In this document: positions 1 to 5,209 of the stretch, one piece after another
Layout of the letters: each line of letters opens with the position of its first letter
Numbering within the stretch: the stretch's first letter is position 1
Assembly (NCBI GenBank): GCA_903927685.1
Contig: CAIYOB010000107.1
Span: 1 to 5,209 of the forward strand
DNA: 5,209 nucleotides
Direction of reading: 5' to 3'
Origin: an uncultured Planctomycetaceae bacterium
GTDB lineage: Bacteria; Planctomycetota; Planctomycetia; Pirellulales; Pirellulaceae
Notes under the pieces: generated by a model
Databases searched by the model: none
Told to the model about the DNA's origin: nothing
What the model saw: only the letters and a program-made list of their open reading frames with translations
Made by a program: the position numbers and the translations under genes

Positions 1-369
1 CAGTGTCCACCGCGAGAGCACGCCGAGGATCGAGTCATGCAGCTCGGCGCACGCCTGATGAAACGCGCAGGTCTTGGCGAGATCCGGCGCTTCGTCGCAG
101 AAGTCGGCCAGGATCGTGCCTTGGCACGCCTCGACAATCGCCAGCAAGGTGATTGTCTCGGGGTTCCGGTTCAGAATCATCCCGCCCGCCACGCCGCGAT
201 GCGACTGGACAATTCCGGCCCGGACGAGATGCCCGGCCACCTTGGCCAAATAGGTAGGAGATTCCCCCAGTTGCTCGGCCAGGGCCCGCGGCGAAATGGG
301 CTCGCTGCTGCGGAGTTGCCCCAGGTAGGTGAGCAAGCGGATCGCGGATCGCGAGGTCTTGGTAAGCAT
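1..369 (-). CDS. Rrf2-family Fe-S transcriptional regulator, partial (C-terminus outside window)
   Basis: Reading the minus strand from the ATG at 369-367 gives 123 uninterrupted residues to the window edge, so the C-terminal end is missing (Rrf2 proteins are usually about 135-165 residues). Seen: an N-terminal winged helix (residues ~1-65) starting MLTKTSRSAIRLLTYLG, a helix-turn-helix at ~26-50 (ISPRALAEQLGESPTYLAKV) and the typical wing SHRGVAGGM at 57-64. After a dimerisation-helix region come three cysteines, C91, C101 and C107 (C-X9-C-X5-C). Family knowledge: in IscR, NsrR and relatives three cysteines in this place bind a [2Fe-2S] or [4Fe-4S] cluster that senses NO, redox state or Fe-S status. 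The X9 spacing is longer than the X4-X5 of NsrR and IscR. The gene is transcribed away from the cytochrome operon, which suggests local control of that operon (inference). Family call is firm; the signal sensed is unknown. Confidence 0.88.
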   Translation of the reverse strand, partial: MLTKTSRSAIRLLTYLGQLRSSEPISPRALAEQLGESPTYLAKVAGHLVRAGIVQSHRGVAGGMILNRNPETITLLAIVEACQGTILADFCDEAPDLAKTCAFHQACAELHDSILGVLSRWTL

Positions 370-710: not shown

Positions 711-738
711 TTGACGCAAGACAACTAAGATATATGAT
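711..738 (+). promoter_or_regulatory. Candidate main sigma70-type promoter of the cytochrome operon
   Basis: TTGACG (711-716) and TATGAT (733-738) are separated by 16 bases; each hexamer matches the consensus at five of six positions. It sits in the only AT-rich patch of the gap, pointing toward the four-gene cluster. The predicted start near 745 gives a leader of about 190 bases to the chosen ATG at 936. Strength and use are inferred from sequence only. Confidence 0.5.
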
Positions 739-741
739 ATC
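729..741. promoter_or_regulatory. Candidate operator: inverted repeat over the -10 element
   Basis: GATAT (729-733), spacer ATG, ATATC (737-741) form a perfect 5-base inverted repeat that covers the -10 hexamer of the promoter at 711-738. A repressor bound here would block RNA polymerase. The nearby divergent Rrf2-family regulator is the obvious candidate ligand, but the arms are short and AT-rich, so chance is a real alternative. Confidence 0.3.
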
Positions 742-935: not shown

Positions 936-1628
936 ATGACAGCCAACACTGGGGTTTTAGGCACCGAGCGAGCGAGGGCGATGTGGGTCCCCGCGGCGCT
1001 GCTGGCGTTCGCGGCCGGGCTCGCGCTGCAGCCCTTTCCCTTCACCAGCCCGGTCTCCGACGCCACCCCGGTTCCTGCGTGGGCCACGGACACGACGCCG
1101 GTGCGCACGCCGCGACTGGAGCCCCTCTACACCCAAGCGGTCTATACGTACCGCTGCAACGACTGTCACAAGATCATCCCTTCTCCGGCCGAGACCAGTC
1201 GGACGCTGACCCAGCACCGGGAGATCGATCTCCAGCACGGCATCAATACGCGGTGCTTCAACTGTCATCACCGCACCAACCGCAACGCGTTCGTCGACGA
1301 CTATGGCGACGAGATTCCTTGGAATCAGCCGCAACTATTGTGCGCCAAGTGCCACGGTCCCGTATACCGGGATTGGCAGCACGGTTCACATGGCCGGACG
1401 AACGGCTACTGGGACGTCACCCGCGGCGAGCAGACTCGGCGGCGCTGCATCGAATGCCATGACCCGCATCACCCGCCGTTCCCGTCGCTGGCTCCCGCGC
1501 CGGGGCCGCACACCCTGCGGATGGGAGATCAGTCGCCCGGCGAGCATGGCGGCAGCCACGATCCTTTGCGGCTCAGCAGTCACCGGCATGGCGCAGGCTT
1601 GGCCACCGCGTCTCAGGAAAAGGATTGA
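936..1628 (+). CDS. Membrane-anchored tetraheme cytochrome c
   Basis: Predicted periplasmic electron carrier, 230 residues from the ATG at 936. An arginine-containing start (ERAR at ~11-14) precedes a hydrophobic stretch at ~17-34 (WVPAALLAFAAGLALQPF) that acts as a signal anchor or uncleaved signal. Four c-type heme motifs follow: CNDCH (74-78), CFNCH (107-111), CAKCH (136-140) and CIECH (171-175), with extra histidines (for example HH at 111-112) that could be second axial ligands. The tail has a Pro-rich PGPHTLRMG segment (~189-197). It is the first gene of the cluster and ends 3 bases before the Fe-S protein gene. By position it should link the Fe-S/NrfD module to the octaheme enzyme, as NrfB or DsrJ do in other systems (inference). 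The start is uncertain: the frame opens at a TTG at 882, and an ATG at 981 would remove all basic residues before the anchor. None has a well-spaced ribosome site; 936 gives the most sensible export signal. Confidence 0.85.
   Translation: MTANTGVLGTERARAMWVPAALLAFAAGLALQPFPFTSPVSDATPVPAWATDTTPVRTPRLEPLYTQAVYTYRCNDCHKIIPSPAETSRTLTQHREIDLQHGINTRCFNCHHRTNRNAFVDDYGDEIPWNQPQLLCAKCHGPVYRDWQHGSHGRTNGYWDVTRGEQTRRRCIECHDPHHPPFPSLAPAPGPHTLRMGDQSPGEHGGSHDPLRLSSHRHGAGLATASQEKD
1615..1624 (+). promoter_or_regulatory. Ribosome binding site of the Fe-S protein gene
   Basis: AGGAAAAGGA lies inside the last codons of the tetraheme cytochrome gene, with its AAGGA part ending 7 bases before the ATG at 1632. 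It supports that start and translation in step with the upstream gene. Confidence 0.6.
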
Positions 1629-1631
1629 CGT

Positions 1632-2678
1632 ATGGCCGATACCGATCCACGTTCCGCGCCCGAGTCATCCTCCGAAGCTCTCGCGACCGACGTCTCCCGG
1701 CGCGGGTTCCTGACGACAGGCCTGGCAGCTTTGGCTGGCGTCTCCGCCGTGGCGGCTGCCCTGTCGCCTTTGCGCAACCTGCCGTCGGGCGATCTGCCGT
1801 CGCTGGACGAGTTCTTGCAGAAGCATTACAAGGAGCTGACGCCGGAGGACAAGGAGCAGGTCTTCGCCCGCATTCGACAGCAAGTCGAGCAGCGGTTTCA
1901 TGTGCAGGCTCAAGTGTCGGATCCGCCGCCGCTGACCGGCGTGGAATTCGTCTACGGCTTGAACCTCAGCCGCTGCATCGGCTGCCGCCGCTGCGTTCAT
2001 GCCTGTGTCAAGGAAAACAACCAATCGCGGTCGCCCGAGATCCAGTACATTCGCGTGCTGGAGATGGAAAAGGGCAGCATCGATGTGGAGACCTCGGACC
2101 ACCACTACGATCCCGCGACGGTGCCGAACCCGGACAAGTATTACATGCCGGTTCAGTGCCACCAGTGCGTCAATCCGCCGTGCGTGAAAGTCTGCCCGGT
2201 CGAGGCCACTTGGCAGGAGCCGGACGGGATCACCGTCATCGATTACGATTGGTGCATCGGCTGCCGGTACTGCGAAGCGGCTTGCCCCTATTGGGCCCGC
2301 CGGTTCAATTTCGCCCAGCCGCAACTGCCCGATTCGGAACTCAATCCGAATATGGCTTACCTGTCCAATCGGCCGCGGGAGAAAGGCGTGATGGAGAAGT
2401 GCACCTACTGCCTGCACCGCACTCGCGTGGGCCGTTTGCCGGCCTGTCTGGAAGTCTGCCCGACGGGCTCACGCAAGTTCGGCAACGTCCTGGATCCGAA
2501 CAGCGAAGTGGCCTACATCCTGGCGCACAAGCGGGTCTACGTGTTCAAGGAGGACGTGGGCACGATTCCGCGGTTCTTCTACTACTTTGACGAACGCGGC
2601 AGCCGGTACCGCGAGCCGATTACGTCGGACTCGCCGGCTGCCGCGGACGCCGCCGCCGGGCCGGGAGACGCCGCATGA
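1632..2678 (+). CDS. Tat-exported NrfC/DsrO/HybA-like protein with four [4Fe-4S] clusters
   Basis: Predicted periplasmic electron-transfer subunit of 348 residues. A twin-arginine signal is visible: SRRGFLTTG at 22-30, then a hydrophobic stretch to ~45. Sixteen cysteines form four ferredoxin-type sets: C115/C118/C121/C125, C176/C179/C184/C188, C208/C211/C214/C218 and C257/C260/C272/C276 (the last as C-X2-C-X11-C-X3-C). This order is that of the NrfC, DsrO, HybA and DmsB beta-subunit family, in which the protein takes electrons to or from an NrfD-type membrane partner. There is no molybdopterin subunit next to it, so the partners are probably the flanking cytochromes. It is longer than NrfC (about 220 residues) because of a charged linker at ~55-105 after the signal and an Ala-rich tail from ~333, and is closer in size to HybA. 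It overlaps the next gene by 4 bases (ATGA), implying translational coupling. Confidence 0.9.
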   Translation: MADTDPRSAPESSSEALATDVSRRGFLTTGLAALAGVSAVAAALSPLRNLPSGDLPSLDEFLQKHYKELTPEDKEQVFARIRQQVEQRFHVQAQVSDPPPLTGVEFVYGLNLSRCIGCRRCVHACVKENNQSRSPEIQYIRVLEMEKGSIDVETSDHHYDPATVPNPDKYYMPVQCHQCVNPPCVKVCPVEATWQEPDGITVIDYDWCIGCRYCEAACPYWARRFNFAQPQLPDSELNPNMAYLSNRPREKGVMEKCTYCLHRTRVGRLPACLEVCPTGSRKFGNVLDPNSEVAYILAHKRVYVFKEDVGTIPRFFYYFDERGSRYREPITSDSPAAADAAAGPGDAA

Positions 2679-3919
2679 AGAAATACGCCACCTTCCTGTG
2701 GGACTGTTTCCGACTGAGCTTCGTCGGCGACTGGCGGTATCACCTGTGGATGCTCGTCCTGACGCTGGTTGCGTTGGGCGGCGTGTACGCCTACTGCCAA
2801 CAGCTCGTCAATGGCCTGGTCACGACCGGCATGACGGATCAGGTTTCCTGGGGACTGTATATTGCGAATTTCACGTACCTGGTCGGTTTGGCGGCGGCGG
2901 CCGCGATGCTGGTGATTCCGGTGTACGTCTACCGCAACCTGCATCTGCACGACGTGGTGATCTTCGGCGAATTGCTCGCCGTGGCGGTGATCGTCATGTG
3001 CCTGCTGTTCGTGACGGTGGACTTGGGGCGTCCGGACCGTTTCATGCACCTGCTGTGGCGATTCAATTTTCCCCTCTCGATGCTGACCTGGGACGTGATC
3101 GCCCTGAACGGCTACCTGCTGTTGAATCTGCACATCTGCGGGTACTTGATCTACTGCGCTTACCTCGGCCGGTCTCCCTCCAAGTTGTTCTACGTGCCGT
3201 TTGTGTTCATCGCCATCGTGTGGGCGATCAGCATCCACACGGTCACGGCGTTCCTGTATGTCGGCTTGGGCGGGCGGCCGTTCTGGAATTCGGCGATCAT
3301 CGCGCCGCGGTTCTTGGCCAGTGCCTTTGCCGCCGGTCCCGCGTTCATCATTTTGACCTTGCAGATCGTGCGGCGAGTCACCACGCACCAGGTCAGCGAC
3401 GACGCCTTGTTGACGCTTCGCCGGATCGTGCAAGTGGCGATGATCATCAACATGTTCCTGCTGGCCTGCGAGGTGTTCACCGAGTTCTATACGGGCTCGG
3501 CGCATGTGGCCTCGGCCCGCTATCTGTACTTCGGCCTGCACGGTCGGCAGGCCCTGGTTCCCTGGATCTGGACGGCGATCGGGATGAACATCGTGGCCAC
3601 CGCGCTGTGGGTTCTGCCCGCCTCGCGCAGCTTGCGTTGGCTGAACACGGCCTGTGTGCTGTCGATCGTGGCCATTTGGATCGAGAAGGGGATGGGCCTG
3701 ATCGTGCCCGCCTTTGTGCCCACGCCGCTGGGCGAGATTGTCGAGTATGTGCCCACGGCTCGCGAGATCGTGATCTGCCTGGGCATCTGGGCTGTGGGCT
3801 TGCTGCTGTACACCATTTTCGTCCGCATCTCCGTGCCGGTGCTCGCGGGCGAAGTCACCTACGAGAGACGTTTCGGCCAATCGCCGCCCGGGCACCAGGG
3901 CGGCCTAGCGAAAGAGTGA
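2675..3919 (+). CDS. nrfD: NrfD/PsrC-family integral membrane subunit (quinone-interacting)
   Basis: Predicted inner-membrane protein, 414 residues, expected to exchange electrons and protons with the quinone pool on behalf of the Fe-S subunit encoded just upstream. I count about ten hydrophobic segments (roughly 22-41, 57-86, 96-116, 134-163, 171-196, 205-232, 249-272, 293-314, 321-347, 364-388). Family-like marks include SWGLYIANFTYLVG (58-71), DLGRPDR (116-122), PRFLASAFAAGPA (211-223) and buried acidic residues E266, E270 and E337. Ten helices and this length match the DsrP/HybB/ActC branch better than the eight-helix, ~320-residue E. coli NrfD. The symbol is used here in the family sense only. 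The start overlaps the upstream stop by 4 bases, with GGGAG (2663-2667) 7 bases ahead of the ATG as ribosome site. The family call is firm; the direction of electron flow is not shown. Confidence 0.92.
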   Translation: MKKYATFLWDCFRLSFVGDWRYHLWMLVLTLVALGGVYAYCQQLVNGLVTTGMTDQVSWGLYIANFTYLVGLAAAAAMLVIPVYVYRNLHLHDVVIFGELLAVAVIVMCLLFVTVDLGRPDRFMHLLWRFNFPLSMLTWDVIALNGYLLLNLHICGYLIYCAYLGRSPSKLFYVPFVFIAIVWAISIHTVTAFLYVGLGGRPFWNSAIIAPRFLASAFAAGPAFIILTLQIVRRVTTHQVSDDALLTLRRIVQVAMIINMFLLACEVFTEFYTGSAHVASARYLYFGLHGRQALVPWIWTAIGMNIVATALWVLPASRSLRWLNTACVLSIVAIWIEKGMGLIVPAFVPTPLGEIVEYVPTAREIVICLGIWAVGLLLYTIFVRISVPVLAGEVTYERRFGQSPPGHQGGLAKE

Positions 3920-3926
3920 GACTGCC

Positions 3927-5209
3927 ATGATCCGACGTTCCGCGATCAACACCTGTTGTGGGCTGATCTCCGCCTTGCTGCTCAGTTCGGTCGGCGGCCT
4001 TGCCTCCGAGGTCCGTGCGCAAGCGTGGGGTCTGCCGGCGATGTCCCCGGAAACCAAGGCTTGCGTCGACTGCCACAAGACGGAGAACACGCCGATCTTC
4101 CAGCAGTGGGGCAACAGCAAACACTACCGGGCCAACGTCGGCTGCTACGAATGCCACATGGCCCAGGAAGGTGAACCGGATGCCTTCCTGCACGAAGGGG
4201 CGTGGATCGCCACGATCGTGTCCCCCAAGGACTGTACCCGCTGCCATGCCGCGGAAGGAGCCGAGTTTGCCCAGTCGCACCACTCGAAAGGCGCTCGGAT
4301 CCTCGGCTCGCTAGACAACACGCTGGCCGAGGTGATTGAAGGCAACCGGGGCATGGTCACGACGGCGTTTCCCAAGGGCGTCAGTTCGGCGGCGGTCAGC
4401 GGCTGCTGGCAGTGCCACGGCAGCGAGGTCAAGGTCTTGCCGGGCGGCAAACTGGATCCGGCCACTTGGCCCAATACGGGGATCGGCCGCATCAACCCGG
4501 ACGGTTCCGAGGGCTCCTGCTCCGCCTGCCACAGCCGGCACTCGTTTTCGGCCGAGCAGGCCCGGCATCCCGACAACTGCGGCAAATGCCACATGGGGCC
4601 CGACCATCCGCAAATGGAGATCTACTACGAGTCGAAACACGGCATCGCGTTCCGGGCGTTCCACGACAAGCTGAACATGGATTCGGCGAAGTGGGTGGTG
4701 GGCGAGGACTATCATTTGGCGCCGACCTGTGCCACGTGCCATATGAGCGCCACGCCGGATCGGCCCGCCACCAAGGACCGGGCCGCCAAGCCGGGCTTGC
4801 GGGTCACCCATGACGTCGGCCTGCGCATCAGCTGGAACAACCGCCCCGAGATCTCGGTCCGGCCGGAAGTCAGCGACAAGAAGATGGGCCTGCCGGGCGC
4901 GGAGGTCAATTGGGAGACGCGGCGGAACAACATGAAAATGGTCTGCCTGAACTGCCACGGCCAGCAGTGGGTGGACAACTTCTACGTCCAGTACGACAGC
5001 CTGCTGGAGCAATACCACACCAAGTTCGCCAGTCCCGGCAAGGAACTGTACGACTTGGCCAAGCCGCTGATGAAGCCGGTTCAGTTCAGCAACGACCTGG
5101 ATTGGATCTGGTACGAGTTGTGGCACCACGAAGGCCGCCGCGCGCGGCATGGCGCATCCATGATGGGCCCCGATTACACCCATTGGCACGGGACCTATGA
5201 AGTGGCCAA
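3927..5209 (+). CDS. Octaheme c-type cytochrome of the hydroxylamine oxidoreductase (HAO) family, partial at 3' end
   Basis: 427 residues are in the window and the frame is still open at the right edge (HAO precursors are about 500-570). A Sec-type signal (MIRR, then a hydrophobic core to ~24, probable cleavage near AQA at 31-33) sends it to the periplasm. Eight CXXCH motifs are seen: 46-50, 73-77, 103-107, 160-164, 198-202, 218-222, 268-272 and 340-344; none is CXXCK, which argues against ONR or tetrathionate reductase types. Order and flanks match Nitrosomonas europaea HAO as I recall it: VGC..CH at heme 2, CHSRHSFSAEQAR at heme 5, CHMGPDH then SKHG at heme 6, APTCATCHM at heme 7. D226-H227 correspond to the HAO active-site Asp267-His268. 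Heme 4 (CWQCH) should be the catalytic heme. The gene starts 7 bases after the NrfD gene with only a weak AAAGAG ribosome site. The likely substrate is nitrite, NO, hydroxylamine or hydrazine; the direction is undecided. Confidence 0.88.
   Translation, partial: MIRRSAINTCCGLISALLLSSVGGLASEVRAQAWGLPAMSPETKACVDCHKTENTPIFQQWGNSKHYRANVGCYECHMAQEGEPDAFLHEGAWIATIVSPKDCTRCHAAEGAEFAQSHHSKGARILGSLDNTLAEVIEGNRGMVTTAFPKGVSSAAVSGCWQCHGSEVKVLPGGKLDPATWPNTGIGRINPDGSEGSCSACHSRHSFSAEQARHPDNCGKCHMGPDHPQMEIYYESKHGIAFRAFHDKLNMDSAKWVVGEDYHLAPTCATCHMSATPDRPATKDRAAKPGLRVTHDVGLRISWNNRPEISVRPEVSDKKMGLPGAEVNWETRRNNMKMVCLNCHGQQWVDNFYVQYDSLLEQYHTKFASPGKELYDLAKPLMKPVQFSNDLDWIWYELWHHEGRRARHGASMMGPDYTHWHGTYEVA

Follow-up and report, generated by a model that had tools for sequence, protein, structure and literature searches.

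The window analysed here is a stretch of 5,209 nucleotides from an uncultured Planctomycetaceae bacterium (contig CAIYOB010000107.1), and it carries an operon of four genes that encode a tetraheme cytochrome c, an Fe-S protein, a membrane protein of the NrfD superfamily and an octaheme cytochrome c of the HAO family. We propose, with a probability of roughly 0.6, that these genes make up one respiratory unit, in which a DsrJOP-like quinol dehydrogenase feeds a reductive N-oxide reductase, most likely one that converts nitrite to hydroxylamine and/or ammonium. The DsrP-like membrane protein would oxidise (mena)quinol, and the electrons would pass through the clusters of the DsrO-like Fe-S protein and through the tetraheme cytochrome to the periplasmic octaheme, which would work in the reductive direction and deliver them to nitrite. 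No simpler chain from quinol to nitrite makes use of all the parts. In the window's clade the last step, or the detoxification of the octaheme product, would fall to the cytoplasmic hybrid cluster protein (Hcp); in many relatives beyond this clade, the nitrite would come from a NapA encoded nearby. The whole would be the epsilon-Hao (reverse-HURM) route in variant form, with a DsrJOP-like module in place of the NapC-type cytochrome CycB (cM552).

The four-gene set and its electron module

The four proteins named in the original prediction, and the junctions between their genes, were confirmed by re-reading the frames, heme motifs and cysteines (Table 1). The genes are joined by a 3-base gap, a 4-base overlap (ATGA) and a 7-base gap. 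The CxxCH motifs of the tetraheme cytochrome lie at residues 74, 107, 136 and 171; the 16 cysteines of the Fe-S protein fall into four groups of four, which by cysteine count would hold four [4Fe-4S] clusters; and the DsrP-like protein gives 13 overlapping hydropathy windows, judged by eye to represent about ten segments. A near-identical full-length relative of the octaheme (P0001, 99% identity) has 501 aa, so that the window protein lacks about 74 C-terminal residues, yet all eight heme motifs are present. The operon is not a chance grouping, since the Pfam families NrfD (1.3e-38) and Multi-haem_cyto (1e-18) are matched and the four genes stand together in 49 of 80 related loci.

Relatives were found with a profile built from 22 octahemes (A1), which gave 460 in 84,980 GTDB species genomes; all locus counts out of 80 refer to the best 80 of these 460. 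The 80 loci were collected using the patterns W[YF]E[IL]WHH and HWHGTYE, and a more diverse alignment (A2) adds subfamilies found by profile. The loci with all four genes belong to Planctomycetota, Verrucomicrobiota, Hydrogenedentota and Myxococcota. An NrfD-family gene stands beside the octaheme gene in 59 of the 80, at a median gap of 8 bases, which adds one Omnitrophota locus that is cut upstream, and the gene order deviates in L064 only. The gene-neighbourhood check suggested with the original prediction thus came out in favour of the pairing, which is syntenic across four phyla; the four-gene set is an old unit. A module homologue was not detected by tblastn in 18 of the 80 loci, and three more have fewer than 150 bases upstream and could not be judged. 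Three module-free loci (L039, L061 and L065) carry in the flank a homologue of the beta subunit of Nar/Nxr-like enzymes (DMSO reductase type II); the two that were scanned fall under the model cut-offs.

Pairwise distances co-vary among the four proteins over 40 loci (Mantel r 0.72-0.89), with r = 0.72 between the membrane protein and the octaheme (top of 999 permutations, 0.28) and 0.89 between the Fe-S protein and the membrane protein (top, 0.36). In a tree of 90 octahemes, planctomycetes are nearest to the window, which lies inside a clade of 27 rows (SH-aLRT 95, by a quick method); the module is present in all 26 labelled rows of this clade, including the window, and the 27th is cut too near the gene to judge. 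Among 294 genomes drawn from the phylum Planctomycetota, 87 hold an HAO-family match (E<=1e-30) and 17 hold a close octaheme, defined as an octaheme match of at least 550 bits. A DsrP-family gene is adjacent to the close octaheme in 13 of these 17 genomes, in 12 by coordinates and in G128 via the stretch L084. No module was detected at seven octahemes of other subfamilies (L102-L108).

The three upstream genes had been predicted to form an NrfCD module that drives an HAO-like enzyme directly. The direct pairing with an Fe-S/NrfD-family module is borne out by the synteny across phyla and by the rarity of NapC-type proteins described below, but the NrfCD identity is not, as model scores favour a DsrOP-like module. 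The membrane subunit scored 412 bits with the DsrP model, over the cut-off of 350, and 24 bits with the NrfD model (cut-off 347.6). The Fe-S protein has its best likeness to DsrO, under the cut-off (158 against 200 bits), and scored 98 bits with the NrfC model TIGR03149 (cut-off 377.6). Four hemes are kept in 48 of the 49 tetraheme homologues read, whereas DsrJ is tabulated with three (PMC8076601). Because DsrP passes, DsrO is nearest though below its cut-off, and the hemes number four and not three, "DsrJOP-like module" is a better name than NrfCD. By these scores the module is DsrJOP-like without membership in DsrMKJOP: it shares with DsrMKJOP and DsrJOP a cytochrome c, a DsrO-like Fe-S protein and a DsrP-like membrane subunit in the same order, and differs in its tetraheme rather than triheme cytochrome and in the sub-cut-off DsrO match. 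Neither DsrM nor DsrK was found among the five window genes (the genomes of relatives were not searched for them), and the sulfite reductase gene dsrA occurs in 5 of the 50 relatives' genomes described next.

No quinol partner of the NapC/NrfH/cM552 type is present among the window genes. Genome content was analysed in 50 genomes, representing 50 of the 59 loci with an NrfD-family gene and split by handle into 24 window-type genomes (G001-G023 and G026) and 26 others. All genome counts given here, those from the 294 Planctomycetota included, come from incomplete metagenome-assembled genomes of related species, and Fisher and Poisson values overstate significance because related genomes are not independent events. 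A match to the NapC/NirT/NrfH-type family PF03264 was found in 1 of the 50 (E<=1e-15; weaker matches are not listed), so that in the other 49 no quinol link of these kinds is recognisable besides the module. The converse swap is seen on plasmids of Desulfosarcina ovata (L109) and Desulfobaculum bizertense (L110), where a NapC/NirT cytochrome precedes an octaheme that is about 41% identical and carries the Met/Trp signature described below; on the D. ovata plasmid norR and NO reductase lie close by.

The module keeps company with both nitrate reductase and the octaheme, because napA lies near places with the module only as well as near close octahemes. NapA was counted with TIGR01706 at E<=1e-60; the model's own cut-off is passed by 0 of the 50 and 11 of the 294 genomes. 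Of the 17 genomes with a close octaheme, 10 have NapA somewhere, 9 of them no more than 10 kb from that octaheme; 49 of the 277 others have it. The 294 genomes contain 67 DsrP-family places, 14 of them within 2 kb of a close octaheme, and at 20 of the remaining 53 a NapA-model match lies within 10 kb. Seven of 12 hand-picked DsrP-family places without an adjacent octaheme (L089-L100, in 11 genomes) adjoin napA, two of the seven being in one genome; in Flammeovirga kamogawensis the genes run NapD, Mo-enzyme, cytochrome c3, hypothetical protein, 4Fe-4S protein and DsrP. NapA also lies within 10 kb at 9 of the 47 listed places of other octahemes (for example G066:C125, G092:C17 and G252:C24), and L107 adjoins napA. 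In the 80 octaheme loci, napA occurs in the fetched flank of 6, four of which were confirmed by model, and four neighbours pass the NapA model NF010055. Nitrite as the substrate would fit this association with Nap in relatives. As a separate observation, the DsrP-family modules at L098, L099 and L100 lie among multiheme cytochromes (frames with 9 to 21 CxxCH), and neither NapA nor a close octaheme was found in those stretches.

Table 1. Positions of genes and sequence features in the window
Feature	Position	Strand	Details
Rrf2-family regulator, 3' end cut by window	1..369	-	PF02082 E 7e-26; divergent from operon
Sigma-70-like promoter match (711-738) overlapping inverted repeat GATAT-ATG-ATATC (729-741)	711..741	+	Lead only; possible operon promoter/operator
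Tetraheme cytochrome c, membrane-anchored or secreted, DsrJ position	936..1628	+	230 aa; PF14522 E 9.7e-7; 4 CxxCH
Tat-exported Fe-S protein, DsrO-like	1632..2678	+	348 aa; SRRGFL motif; DsrO NF045797 158 vs cut-off 200 bits
NrfD-superfamily quinone-interacting membrane subunit, DsrP-like	2675..3919	+	414 aa; PF03916 1.3e-38; DsrP NF045798 412 bits vs cut-off 350
HAO-family octaheme cytochrome c, reductive (epsilon-Hao-like) type by motif	3927..5209, cut by window end	+	427 aa seen; 8 CxxCH
Asp226-His227 of octaheme	4602..4607	+	Same pair in HAO and 6h5l alignments
Met412 ... Trp420 of octaheme, epsilon-Hao signature	5160..5186 (codons 5160-5162, 5184-5186)	+	Sequence; PMC8940962 rule

Octaheme type and the fate of its product

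With profile A2, the octaheme matches the PDB entries 4qo5 (1.4e-103), 6h5l (1.3e-37) and 1fgj (1.1e-34). It contains the motif MMGPDYTHWHG, in which Met412 is followed eight residues on by Trp420 (M412-x7-W420). Of the 16 rows in the diverse alignment A2, all keep Met412 and 15 keep Trp420; among L001-L080 the conservation of Trp420 is partly built in, because these loci were chosen by the patterns given above. In epsilon-Hao, a Trp takes the position of the cross-link Tyr of nitrifier HAO and a Met stands eight residues earlier (PMC8940962, citing Haase 2017), and a reductive version of Hao has been predicted for the large majority of species outside anammox bacteria (PMC12758564). Trp420 was placed at the cross-link position by motif and not by direct alignment to the Nitrosomonas Tyr region. 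By this motif the octaheme is an HAO-family protein of the reductive, epsilon-Hao-like type. The Asp226-His227 pair is presumably catalytic. With 81% identity across 94% of the query, the relative P0082, which its source assigns to Novipirellula artificiosorum, may open the unit to experiment, should it carry the module.

The best PDB match and closest solved structure, 4qo5, the octaheme of Ignicoccus hospitalis, is likewise an HAO-family octaheme. It differs in that Asp-Val stands at the place of the window protein's Asp-His pair, and the H-W-H-G motif is absent from its aligned stretch. A second octaheme, of the Ignicoccus type, was seen at L070 (19246-20745, + strand), about 8 kb from the operon; it has 34% identity to P0001 and carries neither the Asp-His pair nor the Trp motif.

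The 50 module genomes contain NrfA in 8, NapA in 12 (one of them, G029, at only 211 bits), NarG in 10, Hcp in 28 and dsrA in 5. NrfA was counted at E<=1e-30 (at E<=0.001, 37 of the 50 are listed, the extra ones at 33 bits or less), NapA and NarG at E<=1e-60, and Hcp over its cut-off. Of the 24 window-type genomes, 23 have Hcp, 0 NapA, 4 NarG, 4 NrfA and 4 dsrA; the corresponding numbers for the other 26 are 5, 12, 6, 4 and 1. As background, Hcp is present in 58 of the 294 Planctomycetota and in 75 of 194 Verrucomicrobiota, and the 294 Planctomycetota have NrfA in 78 and NapA in 59. A strong Hcp association is confined to the window's clade, and an Hcp gene lies in the operon flank at two loci (L006 and L023). 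If the octaheme released hydroxylamine, the presence of Hcp would be accounted for, as in the reverse-HURM pathway of Nautilia (PMC3701875).

Several observations weigh against nitrite reduction as the function of the unit. In 20 of the 24 window-type genomes there is neither a NapA nor a NarG match (other nitrate reductases were not searched for), so that no canonical nitrite source was found there, which is a weak point of nitrite as the substrate. Outside the window-type clade Hcp occurs in the 5 of 26 genomes noted above, and the 294-genome sample shows a weak association with octaheme-DsrP adjacency: Hcp is in 5 of 12 genomes that have this adjacency and in 53 of the 282 others (p 0.06). 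The NrfA frequency, 8 of 50 against the background of 78 of 294, means that the unit does not clearly replace NrfA. Four of the five dsrA-containing genomes are of the window type, the window itself has no FNR box (see below), and the structure prediction for the octaheme, at pLDDT 49.5, was unusable.

A further-reaching version of nitrite reduction is put forward more tentatively. The unit might be an energy-conserving quinol:nitrite oxidoreductase, in which nitrite reduction by the octaheme is coupled to proton movement; this would set it apart from the NapC/NrfH/CycB route with its single cytochrome. Together with Hcp it might form, in the window's clade, a complete route from nitrite to ammonium in two steps that requires none of Nap, Nar and NrfA. 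Such coupling is suggested because the membrane subunit belongs to the NrfD/DsrP family, which has been proposed to translocate ions (PMC8076601).

Regulation and alternative functions

Within 500 bases upstream of the first gene, the box TTGAYNNNNRTCAA, the FNR-type consensus, was found in 17 of 48 loci, including L004, L005, L006, L024, L049 and L075. The sites total 18, where the remaining sequence of these same loci would predict 0.23. Of 18 octaheme genes that lack the module, 2 have the box. The window also encodes an Rrf2-family regulator that the original prediction had left unmentioned. This protein scored 36 of 182 bits with the NsrR model, and three Cys seen near its end (C-x9-C-x5-C) form a pattern compatible with an Fe-S sensor, wider than the Cys spacing of NsrR and IscR. 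Rrf2 genes occur in the fetched flanks of 6 of the 80 related loci. Promoter-like sites in the window number 2 against 0.8 expected, and the inverted repeat of Table 1 was not seen upstream of 21 relatives examined. Control of the operon may respond to oxygen or NO.

A serious rival keeps the same wiring with NO, or free hydroxylamine, as the substrate: the octaheme would then relieve nitrosative stress, with Hcp as its cytoplasmic arm and an Rrf2 or FNR-type protein as the NO sensor. We consider this unlikely, though well within reason. It would suit the gene content of the window-type genomes (Hcp in 23 of 24, NapA in none), the divergent three-Cys Rrf2 regulator, the FNR/DNR-type boxes, and the norR, NO reductase and hemerythrin-domain protein that lie next to the homologue at L109. 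A four-gene respiratory module would, however, be costly as a detoxifier, the Rrf2 protein falls far under the NsrR cut-off, and nitrate/nitrite respiration is indicated by the presence of napA no more than 10 kb away in 9 of the 17 close-octaheme genomes and at 20 of the 53 module-only places.

Reduction of a sulfur compound (sulfite, tetrathionate or polysulfide) is improbable: dsrA is found in just 5 of the 50 genomes, and a NapA-model match lies near 20 of the 53 module-only places. The DsrP/DsrO likeness would nevertheless fit such a reductase, an alternative that PMC5276818 itself raises for Thermosulfurimonas, and the possibly related nrfD operons of Deferrivibrio are nitrate-repressed and were assigned to sulfur (PMC11896075).

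The original prediction had also allowed an oxidative branch, with electrons from hydroxylamine or hydrazine entering the quinone pool through the module. The octaheme does belong to the HAO family and has the Asp-His pair in common with HAO, and certain homologues are labelled hydroxylamine dehydrogenase or oxidoreductase by their source. Oxidation of either compound is unlikely, and we give it little weight, in view of the Met412/Trp420 signature, with Trp at the reported cross-link position, and of a score of 54 of 900 bits with the hydrazine dehydrogenase model NF052343; in addition, no ammonia monooxygenase or hydrazine synthase gene was found among the five window genes (the genomes of relatives were not searched for either). 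Membership in oxidative HAO or hydrazine dehydrogenase was considered separately and rejected by the same motif and score, the Tyr that would be cross-linked to a P460 heme being replaced, by motif, with Trp.

Least probable is an electron outlet to an outer-membrane or extracellular acceptor, with the octaheme as conduit and not enzyme: the protein barely passes the Pfam model of MtrC/MtrF domains II/IV (30.4 against 30 bits) and Alginate-export-type porin genes lie in the flanks of 12 of the 80 loci (for example L022, L047 and L065), but its homology to the HAO family is much stronger, it retains the Asp-His pair of HAO together with a near-invariant C-terminal motif, and no MtrB/PioB-type barrel occurs among the 20 neighbour proteins scanned.

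Relation to known systems

Quinol-driven nitrite reduction by the four-gene unit would offer a candidate answer to the electron supply of octaheme Hao-type reductases in bacteria without NapC or CycB; for Caldithrix, several routes were left open (PMC5317091). It would also imply that planctomycete and verrucomicrobial genes labelled "hydroxylamine dehydrogenase" may be markers of N-oxide reduction and of the retention of nitrogen rather than of nitrification. In the mostly non-subscription literature covered, no description was found of the operon in Planctomycetota or Verrucomicrobiota, of a module shared by Nap and the octaheme, or of links to Hcp or FNR boxes, and absence is unproven.

The expectation of a little-described system is correct in that the unit is sparsely described, but it is not undescribed. 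Thermosulfurimonas and Dissulfuribacter have a locus with an HaoA homologue, NrfD, an Fe-S protein and a cytochrome c beside napMADGH, for which nitrite reduction was proposed (PMC5276818, PMC4911364). By its published description this locus unites the same four kinds of gene, but it is joined to napMADGH in one 11-gene cluster, occurs in other phyla, and its authors left sulfur metabolism open. Of the two papers, as far as their accessible text goes, the one from 2017 reports NrfA, NapC and CycB as absent and the one from 2016 names NrfH elsewhere in that genome.

NrfABCD of enterobacteria resembles the unit in that an Fe-S and NrfD-family module feeds a multiheme N-oxide reductase; in the window, however, the NrfC and NrfD models are far under cut-off and the terminal enzyme is an octaheme HAO homologue rather than NrfA, no window protein matching PF02335. 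The NrfD-type cluster of Planctomycetota metagenome-assembled genomes (Suarez 2023, PMC10732223) shares the phylum, the N-cycle context, an NrfD subunit, an Fe-S protein and a multiheme cytochrome, but is an ACIII-like cluster of six genes, among them those for ActD, CcoP and a cytochrome that is mostly pentaheme, and the accessible part of that paper names no HAO-type octaheme. The epsilon-Hao and CycB pair (reverse-HURM) of Nautilia profundicola and relatives (PMC3701875) is alike in its octaheme without the cross-link Tyr, its drive by quinol and the use of Hcp for the second step. There, one NapC/NrfH-type tetraheme cytochrome does the work for which the present unit would use a three-protein DsrJOP-like module, in window-type genomes that, among those tested, have no NapA.

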